NCBI GenBank assembly: GCA_030616165.1
Contig: JAUWXV010000012.1
Coordinates: 1 to 31,553, forward strand
DNA from: a bacterium
Lineage (GTDB): Bacteria > SM23-31 > JAUVVT01
Reading direction: 5' to 3'
DNA: 31,553 nt
The notes beneath the pieces were generated by a model. That model made no database searches and had not been told where the DNA came from. It was given only the letters and a program-made list of their open reading frames with translations. The first letter of the stretch is position 1. Each line of letters opens with the position of its first letter. Shown here in pieces: positions 28,140 through 30,355 of this stretch. The position numbers and the translations under genes were made by a program.

Positions 28140-29402
28140 ATGGGAATGACAATCACAGAAAAGATACTTGCAAAACATTCAAGCAAGAGTCTTGTTGAAC
28201 CAGGTCAAATTATTGAGTGTGAGGTTGGTATTGTTTTAGGGAATGATATTACTGCACCAATCGCTATAAACGAATTTGAAAAATTGGATGTAAAAGATGT
28301 TTTTGATAGAGATAAAATTGTATTAGTACCAGACCATTTTACTCCTAATAAGGATATAAAATCTGCCCAGCAGGTACGCCAGATACGAGAGTTTGCCCGG
28401 AAATATAATATAAAGCATTTTTATGAGACCGGAAGAGCAGGGATAGAACATGCATTTTTGCCGGAACAGGGTATTGTTACCGCTGGGGATTGTGTTGTTG
28501 GTGCGGATTCGCATACCTGTGCGTATGGGGCGCTTGGGGCATTTTCCACTGGTGTCGGAAGCACAGATATGGCAGGCACTATGATTACAGGAAAGACCTG
28601 GTTTAAAGTGCCGCACTCTATGAAATTTATCTATTATGGGAAGTTGAATAAATGGGTTTATGGAAAGGATTTGATTTTATATACCATCGGAAAGATAGGA
28701 GTGGAGGGCGCAAGATATAGGGCAATGGAATTTACTGGAGAAGTAATATCTTCTTTGCCGATGGAACAGAGATTAACTATGTGCAATATGGCGATAGAGG
28801 CAGGTGCAAAATCCGGGATAATTGAGCCAGATAAAATCACAGAAGAATATCTGAAAAATAGAAGTAAAAGAAAACCTATATTTTATTTTAGTGATAAAGA
28901 TTCGAAGTATGTTGAACAAGTAGAAATAGACACAAGTAAAATAGAACCGCAGGTATCTTTTCCACATCTTCCAGAAAATGCAAAGAAAGTTTCTGAAGCA
29001 TCGGGAATTGAAATTGACCAAGTATTTATAGGCTCATGTACAAATGGATGGCTGAGTGATCTTAGAATTGCCGCAGAAATACTTAAAGGGCGTAAGATTT
29101 CACCGAACGTACGATGTATTGTTATTCCGTCAACTCCAGAGATTTATAAACAAGCGTTGAAGGAGGGATTAATAGAAATATTTATTAATGCTGATGCAGT
29201 TTTTTCAACGCCCACCTGCGGACCGTGTCTTGGTGGACATATGGGAATCCTGGCAGAGGGTGAAAGGGCAGTTTCAACATCGAACAGAAACTTTGTAGGA
29301 AGAATGGGGCATCCAGAATCTGAAGTTTATCTTGCCAGTCCAGCAGTGGCAGCAGCATCAGCAATAACAGGACGAATTACATCCCCGGAAGAAGTATTAT
29401 AA
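28140..29402 (+). CDS. leuC: 3-isopropylmalate dehydratase, large subunit
   Basis: With LeuD it isomerises 2- to 3-isopropylmalate using a 4Fe-4S cluster. The 420 residues are of the shorter HacA/archaeal-LeuC type, with G-A-D-S-H-T-C (first cluster Cys), G-S-C-T-N-G and T-P-T-C-G-P-C-L-G-G-H carrying cluster ligands. R-M-G-H-P-E-S-E-V-Y-L-A-S-P is near the C-terminus. Start ATG follows AAGGGGAAG. The stop codon abuts the left inverted repeat of a GxxExxY cassette that separates it from leuD; the C-terminus looks complete. Confidence 0.95.
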   Translation: MGMTITEKILAKHSSKSLVEPGQIIECEVGIVLGNDITAPIAINEFEKLDVKDVFDRDKIVLVPDHFTPNKDIKSAQQVRQIREFARKYNIKHFYETGRAGIEHAFLPEQGIVTAGDCVVGADSHTCAYGALGAFSTGVGSTDMAGTMITGKTWFKVPHSMKFIYYGKLNKWVYGKDLILYTIGKIGVEGARYRAMEFTGEVISSLPMEQRLTMCNMAIEAGAKSGIIEPDKITEEYLKNRSKRKPIFYFSDKDSKYVEQVEIDTSKIEPQVSFPHLPENAKKVSEASGIEIDQVFIGSCTNGWLSDLRIAAEILKGRKISPNVRCIVIPSTPEIYKQALKEGLIEIFINADAVFSTPTCGPCLGGHMGILAEGERAVSTSNRNFVGRMGHPESEVYLASPAVAAASAITGRITSPEEVL

Positions 29403-29846
29403 ATCCACAGATTGCACAGATTTATTTTAATGGATAAAGAAAAATTTTTATATAAAGAGTTAACATATAAAATAATTGGTGCTGCAATGGAAGTTCATAG
29501 TATTTTGGGGTGTGGATTCTTGGAGGATGTTTACGAAGAAGCATTTTGCTATGAATTAAAATTAAGAAGAATAAATTATGTGAGGCATAAAGAAATTGGA
29601 ATATATTATAAAGATTATTTAATACCCAAAAAATACAAATTTGATTTAATTATTGAAAATAAGATATTAGTAGAATTAAAAGCCAAAAAATGTTTAGATG
29701 GAGTTGACGAAGCACAATTGATGAATTATCTGAAGGCAACAAAAATTAAAATAGGTTTATTGTTTAATTTTGGTGCAGAAAGTTTAGAATATAAAAGAAA
29801 AATATTATAAATTTTTTAATCCGTGAAATCTGTGCAATCTGTGGAT
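29403..29846. mobile_element. GxxExxY cassette bounded by perfect 21-bp inverted repeats
   Basis: The 21 bases at 29403-29423 are the exact reverse complement of those at 29826-29846. Each arm contains two copies of the word CACAGATT/AATCTGTG, and the right side has a third, degenerate copy (AATCCGTG at 29818-29825). The 444-bp unit holds a single gene and sits precisely between the leuC stop and the leuD Shine-Dalgarno. I see no convincing target-site duplication beyond short A/T runs. Confidence 0.7.
29430..29810 (+). CDS. GxxExxY protein (PD-(D/E)XK-like fold)
   Basis: A 126-residue protein of the GxxExxY family. The name motif is G29-F-L-E32-D-V-Y35. A nuclease-like core follows: K-F-D72-L-I, then V-E82-L-K84-A, then Q96-L-M-N-Y100, matching PD-(D/E)XK order. 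The end G-L-L-F-N-F-G-A-E-S-L-E-Y-K-R is typical. The biochemical role of the family is not established; the fold suggests a nuclease or a derivative of one. I use ATG 29430 because the in-frame TTG at 29412 lies inside the left inverted repeat. It is very A-rich (many AAA, AAT, TTA codons) even against its neighbours. It interrupts the normal leuC-leuD pair. Confidence 0.85.
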   Translation: MDKEKFLYKELTYKIIGAAMEVHSILGCGFLEDVYEEAFCYELKLRRINYVRHKEIGIYYKDYLIPKKYKFDLIIENKILVELKAKKCLDGVDEAQLMNYLKATKIKIGLLFNFGAESLEYKRKIL

Positions 29847-29863: not shown

Positions 29864-30355
29864 ATGGTATTAAGAGGGAAATGCTGGAAGTTTGGAGATA
29901 ATATCGATACAGATGTTATAATACCAGCGAGGTATTTAAACACTACAAATCCGAATGAACTTGCCCTTCACGTTATGGAGGATGCAGACAAAGAGTTTGT
30001 AAAAAAGGCGTCGAAAGGGGATATCATAATTGGAGGAAACAATTTTGGATGCGGTTCTTCTCGTGAACATGCACCGATAGCAATTAAAGGATTTGGGATA
30101 GCCTGCGTTATTGCTAAATCTTTTGCAAGAATCTTTTTCAGAAATGCTATCAATATCGGATTACCTATAATTGAGTCTTCCGAATTTGTGGATGAGTCTG
30201 ATGAAGGTGATGAAATGGAAATTATCACCGATGAGGGAATAATAAAAAATATTTCAAAACAAAAAGAATATAAAGTTAGAGAATTTCCACAATTCTTGCA
30301 GGAGATTATTGATAATGGTGGATTGATGAATTGGATTAGAAAGGTTAAATTATAA
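29864..30355 (+). CDS. leuD: 3-isopropylmalate dehydratase, small subunit
   Basis: Small swivelling subunit that completes the LeuCD isomerase. The 163 residues start with [13 protein letters not shown] and include [15 protein letters not shown] and [14 protein letters not shown], all typical of the short LeuD/HacB type that pairs with a 420-residue LeuC. ATG 29864 follows AAGGAG that begins just past the right inverted repeat of the cassette, so the insertion leaves its translation signal intact. Confidence 0.96.

Follow-up and report, generated by a model that had tools for sequence, protein, structure and literature searches.

Most GxxExxY genes lie between inverted arrays of short DNA words, an arrangement that resembles REP/RAYT units

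Two described systems come closest to the element analyzed here. In RAYT/REP units (also REPIN; TnpA-REP) the nuclease gene always lies between two inverted REPs, and the type of repeat goes with the type of protein (PMC2817692). The Coxiella 23S intervening sequence has 28-bp ends, heptamers and an S23p open reading frame, and its excision by RNase III is known (PMC4990558). For GxxExxY proteins the library entries TIGR04256 and PF13366 assign no function.

The window (the whole stretch of bacterial DNA analyzed, 31,553 nucleotides) contains a GxxExxY gene placed between leuC and leuD (Table 1). As in RAYT/REP, the GxxExxY unit is a single nuclease open reading frame between two inverted repeats. 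However, RAYT is a Y1 HUH nuclease whereas GxxExxY is of the PD-(D/E)XK type, RAYT repeats are palindromes headed by GT(A/G)G whereas those of GxxExxY are arrays of short words, and, set against RAYT/REP, GxxExxY units occur in many phyla, archaea included. Identity with RAYT was rejected, as there was no HUH Y1 transposase and the sole match was to PDDEXK_3/TIGR04256; the likeness is one of working only. The 23S intervening sequence (S23p, the TIGR02436 four-helix bundle) also has a small open reading frame, of about the same length, enclosed by inverted ends in which short words recur, but its protein is unrelated to GxxExxY, its words are others and the published case lies in rRNA. This identity was likewise rejected, the window protein being TIGR04256 rather than TIGR02436 and the site being leuC-leuD rather than a 23S rRNA gene. 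An Rfam search of the window cassette gave no match.

Table 1 Features of the cassette and its neighbours (window positions)
Feature	Position	Strand	Remarks
leuC, 3-isopropylmalate dehydratase large subunit	28140..29402	+	left neighbour, intact
left terminal arm	29403..29423		two CACAGAT words, 9-nt pitch (+ strand, 29406-29412 and 29415-29421); 100% complementary to 29826-29846
GxxExxY gene	29430..29810	+	126 aa; ATG at 29430, stop ends at 29810; Cas4/RecB-type PD-(D/E)XK fold (predicted); E (GxxExxY), D, ELK, QxxxY all present
third, degenerate word ATCCGTG (complement of CACGGAT)	29819..29825		inner side of right arm
right terminal arm	29826..29846		two words, orientation opposite to left arm; ATCTGTG (complement of CACAGAT) on + strand, 29828-29834 and 29837-29843
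leuD, 3-isopropylmalate dehydratase small subunit	29864..30355	+	right neighbour, intact; AAGGAG immediately 5' of the start

The two arms are complementary at 21 of 21 positions and stand 402 nt apart. In 500 shuffles of the region at constant composition, with the arms separated by 250 nt or more, the perfect inverted repeat averaged 5.7 bp and the longest reached 14 bp. An earlier reading made from the sequence only had described an exact 21-bp inverted repeat bounding one 126-residue gene, and this description holds against the shuffle maximum. It had also correctly placed the cassette after the leuC stop codon and ahead of the leuD ribosome-binding site, with both leu genes intact. The leuC TAA occupies 29400-29402, and thus the left arm begins directly after it. 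The sequence-only reading had further taken the repeat to consist of AATCTGTG words. Such words are present in the arms, but AATCTGTG is one spelling only of a wider word, CRCNRAK, and the degenerate third word beside the right arm had not been counted.

The window protein matched both TIGR04256 (140.5 bits, cut-off 35, E 2.9e-41) and PDDEXK_3 (PF13366; 132.3 bits, cut-off 22, E 1.4e-38) over its full length. It has all of the invariant alignment columns, namely the E and Y of GxxExxY, the D, the ExK and the Q. A search by sequence for a solved relative gave a best E value of only 0.85. With the predicted structure (pLDDT 94.4) the top solved-structure match was SSO0001 (4ic1; Foldseek E 2.5e-4, Z 9.8), which we take to be a Cas4, and further nucleases, among them AddAB, BamHI, Hjc and lambda exonuclease, ranked lower. 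As modeled, the window protein is a PD-(D/E)XK nuclease fold of the Cas4/RecB type, and because of this fold we infer that GxxExxY proteins would cleave DNA. Cas4, AddB and lambda exonuclease have in common with it a PD-(D/E)XK core with a QxxxY-type motif, whereas the GxxExxY protein is smaller and single-domain; unlike Cas4, the window copy adjoins no cas genes, its neighbours being leuC and leuD. The suggestion that the unit is addiction-like found no support: a partner gene is absent, and the best match of the window protein to PADLOC defence profiles was partial and unconvincing (E 0.01). A toxin-antitoxin or anti-phage system was therefore rejected, this being a single gene without a partner or a known defence profile. 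A PHROG search with the window protein gave no match. Phage carriage of GxxExxY was rejected (0 of 50,697 phage records, with 3 loci in viral contigs by the pattern used), as was plasmid carriage (8 records out of 72,556 for plasmids, each of a non-mobilizable one).

The general word of the family is CRCNRAK, which occurs in 2-4 inward-pointing copies per end at a pitch of about 9 nt. An exact AATCTGTG repeat throughout the family was rejected, since other copies in the window genome (G000) are spelled otherwise: the words flanking L004 are of the CGCGAAT type and those flanking L001, L002 and the broken L005 are of the CACAGAG type. Across the 60 genomes sampled, almost every full-length copy had arms that followed the grammar 5'-(A)ACCRCNRAK-NN-CRCNRAK..., pointing inward. 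Upstream arms contained 304 inward words vs 34 outward words; the count per arm was usually 3 and the spacing 8-10, with a mode of 9. Among 77 loci, nearly all of them named records from many phyla plus archaea, the best inverted match between the flanks scored at least 26 in 86% and at least 30 in 77%. The corresponding control values were 6% and 1.4% for offset windows in the same loci, 22% and 11% for mispaired flanks of those loci, and 6% and 1.4% for neighbouring genes. The 80 named collection loci come from one sub-clade, a bias that is offset by the whole-genome sample. With that sample added, which brought the set to 177 GxxExxY genes of many phyla and of archaea, the proportions were 76% at 26 or more and 68% at 30 or more, and about a quarter of the family members were without clear repeats.

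The sequence-only reading had proposed to collect GxxExxY genes with 150 bp on each side, and had held that its idea would fail if most of them lacked the repeats. With flanks limited in this way 68% of the genes still had inverted repeats at 26 or more, and the 76% of 177 genes given above puts the genes without repeats in the minority. Gene and repeats are co-inherited across phyla, in agreement with the reading's view of them as one unit. These data also bear on one alternative, an ordinary resident gene that happens to stand within a chance or terminator-like inverted repeat. A related genome, G001, has the gene at the same place, which fits long vertical inheritance of such a gene, but the repeat is far longer than in shuffles and the same architecture is found in most family members of other phyla, and we consider this explanation extremely improbable. 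Our literature search found no description of a GxxExxY-repeat association and no match to six literal repeat strings, within a coverage that left out most subscription papers, so that an earlier account could exist; in the openly readable literature none of the papers naming the GxxExxY family dealt with repeats. Hence the association looks to be undescribed, in bacteria and archaea.

The spelling of the words tracks the clade of the protein. The majority word was common to both arms in 67 of 80 elements with 12 expected, a figure somewhat inflated because the arms were picked by complementarity. On the protein tree the last base of the word changed 6 times, compared with a mean of 21.6 and a minimum of 19 for shuffled labels; it was G in 88 of the 90 elements of one clade and T in 18 of 22 in the clade of the window protein. 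Among the G-word elements base 5 required 13 changes vs 27.0 when shuffled, base 4 tracked more weakly (15 vs 21.9) and base 2 gave no clear tracking (19 vs 22.7). Six genomes contain both protein clades, and in these the word matched the protein clade in 18 of 18 elements; spelling is therefore not a host property. The association persisted in the whole-genome sample alone, with the collection loci left out. As it is mostly one deep split, long co-inheritance is proven more strongly than repeated co-adaptation. A match of repeat type to protein type is thus found in GxxExxY as in RAYT, and is what would be expected if the protein may act on its own repeats, as had been suggested.

The same data argue against an element that works at the RNA level, as the 23S rRNA intervening sequences do, in which the stem formed by the arms in a leuC-leuD transcript would be excised by RNase III and the protein would be incidental. 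In the predicted transcript fold the 21-bp arms are indeed paired, and the Coxiella intervening sequence has the same layout of 28-bp terminal repeats, one small open reading frame and heptamers (PMC4990558). However, such an element would not need words that follow the protein clade, and the protein is under purifying selection (dN/dS 0.05-0.34 for close pairs of GxxExxY genes). Mismatches between the arms favour G-U compatible changes only marginally (293 vs 247, p 0.053), and therefore give no clear sign of RNA-level selection. We regard an RNA-level element as very unlikely.

Word arrays also occur away from the gene. With an array defined as three words at 9-nt pitch, 45 gene-positive genomes contained 719 (mean 16, where the gene itself numbered one to eleven per genome), and 168 gene-negative genomes contained 107 (mean 0.6). 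At least five arrays were present in 23 of the 45 gene-positive vs 4 of the 168 gene-negative genomes (p 1e-14), and the reversed control pattern gave 27 arrays in gene-positive vs 15 in gene-negative genomes. In genomes rich in G+C some of the matches may represent coding sequence. Facing pairs of arrays about 65 to 140 bp apart, which leaves no room for the gene, were found in G039, G175 and the window genome (G000:C225). In this dispersal of related gene-free repeats in gene-bearing genomes GxxExxY again resembles RAYT/REP. Two genomes, G013 and G198, had many CRCNRAK arrays and no GxxExxY gene at the threshold used; G013 also had 19 weak TIGR02436-like matches, many of them as back-to-back pairs.

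The window copy itself is old. In G001, which belongs to the same family and has a leuC 83% identical to that of the window, the same leuC-leuD site contains a C-terminal remnant (FGAESLEYKRK) and decayed arms, and thus the window insertion is old and vertically inherited; it was made before the split of its genome from G001 and has been passed on vertically since. The comparison of leuC-leuD junctions that had been proposed gave this broken remnant, and in several more distant relatives leuC and leuD are nearly adjacent. A relative with decayed repeats at this spot was the outcome that the sequence-only reading had set against its mobile cassette, and it does count against recent mobility of the window copy, but not against mobility of the family. 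Other copies in the window genome are dispersed and show target duplications.

These dispersed copies are CACAGAG cassettes 93-96% identical to one another. Their outer end, GGTNNTGTCAAAA, occurs at 14 places in the window genome (L286-L298), and the GGTNNTGTCAAAA family consists mostly of derivatives without the gene, about 100-180 bp long, which lie a short way ahead of the start codons of other genes. In 10 of 10 measurable copies the 8-bp target duplications agreed at 7 or all 8 positions, compared with 23% for mispaired flanks. Target-site duplications were not in excess directly beyond the word arms in a set of 100 elements, and hence the cassette by itself lacks a classical cut-and-paste signature. 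A classical insertion sequence was accordingly rejected, as the 8-bp duplications are found only in the sub-family with extra outer ends.

Because the transposed family of the window genome carries those extra outer ends, its mover may be another transposase. The cassette could then be a passenger that owes its movement to an unrelated transposase or to recombination, with a nuclease that serves repair or defence and arms that are only ends or regulatory hairpins. The 10 of 10 duplications at the outer inverted ends, gene-free derivatives included, and the lack of general duplication at the word arms both fit such a passenger. A passenger does not explain why the spelling goes with the protein, even at individual base positions and inside one genome, or why word arrays depend on the presence of the gene, and the window copy is without GGTNNTGTCAAAA-like outer ends. 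On balance we think a passenger unlikely. A weak match to an element end (L299, G000:C302) lies beside an open reading frame that reads like a putative Y1 (REP-associated) transposase.

Our preferred reading is that the window cassette is an old member of a very common class of units that are probably RAYT/REP-like, in which a nuclease would act on its own words. The GxxExxY nuclease would bind the word array at each end, and the repetition of the words at a nearly constant pitch points to several subunits or to tandem sites. It would then cut or process DNA at the arrays, by which the gene with its two arrays, or in trans a pair of arrays that lacks the gene, would be copied to new intergenic sites; nuclease action would also keep the arms alike. 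The working would be that of REP/RAYT with a Cas4/RecB-type nuclease replacing the HUH transposase. Recognition of the words by the protein is the best supported of these putative steps, and active dissemination by the protein is the least certain. A broader proposal, which we put at an even chance, is that GxxExxY proteins are the enzymes of a bacterial and archaeal repeat-propagation system independent of and parallel to REP/RAYT, in which the Cas4-like nuclease reads the words, bases 4, 5 and 7 form a protein-DNA specificity code, and which has given rise to the CACAGAG/CACGAAG/CGCAGAT-type repeats between the genes of environmental genomes. A large family whose annotation has so far been without function would thereby gain a testable job, one class of the intergenic repeats that environmental genomes contain would be accounted for, and natural pairs of nuclease and DNA word would be supplied for reading a recognition code.

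The layout of one gene between inverted words is shared by two or more proteins that are unrelated to each other, GxxExxY and the TIGR02436 four-helix bundles among them. Genes of TIGR02436 also had word-built inverted repeats, 55% of them at 30 or more vs 1.7% of control windows. The TIGR02436 loci of the window genome (L087, L088, L089, L091) and their relatives (L092-L120) use another, roughly heptameric vocabulary (GCTATTAGC, CGTAAAT, GGTTAGC, GTAGGT and others). The cassette of G065 sits between a gene and moxR, and its congener G228 has no cassette there; upstream of moxR G228 has heptamer repeats (L301; GATAACC / GGCTATC) where G065 has the GxxExxY cassette. It is as if GxxExxY and heptamer cassettes use the same intergenic sites. 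In Lacimicrobium (L173, 2460-2915) a GxxExxY cassette lies between putative relA and mazG genes, as judged from protein sequences, and starts a few bases past the upstream stop codon, resembling the leuC-leuD case.
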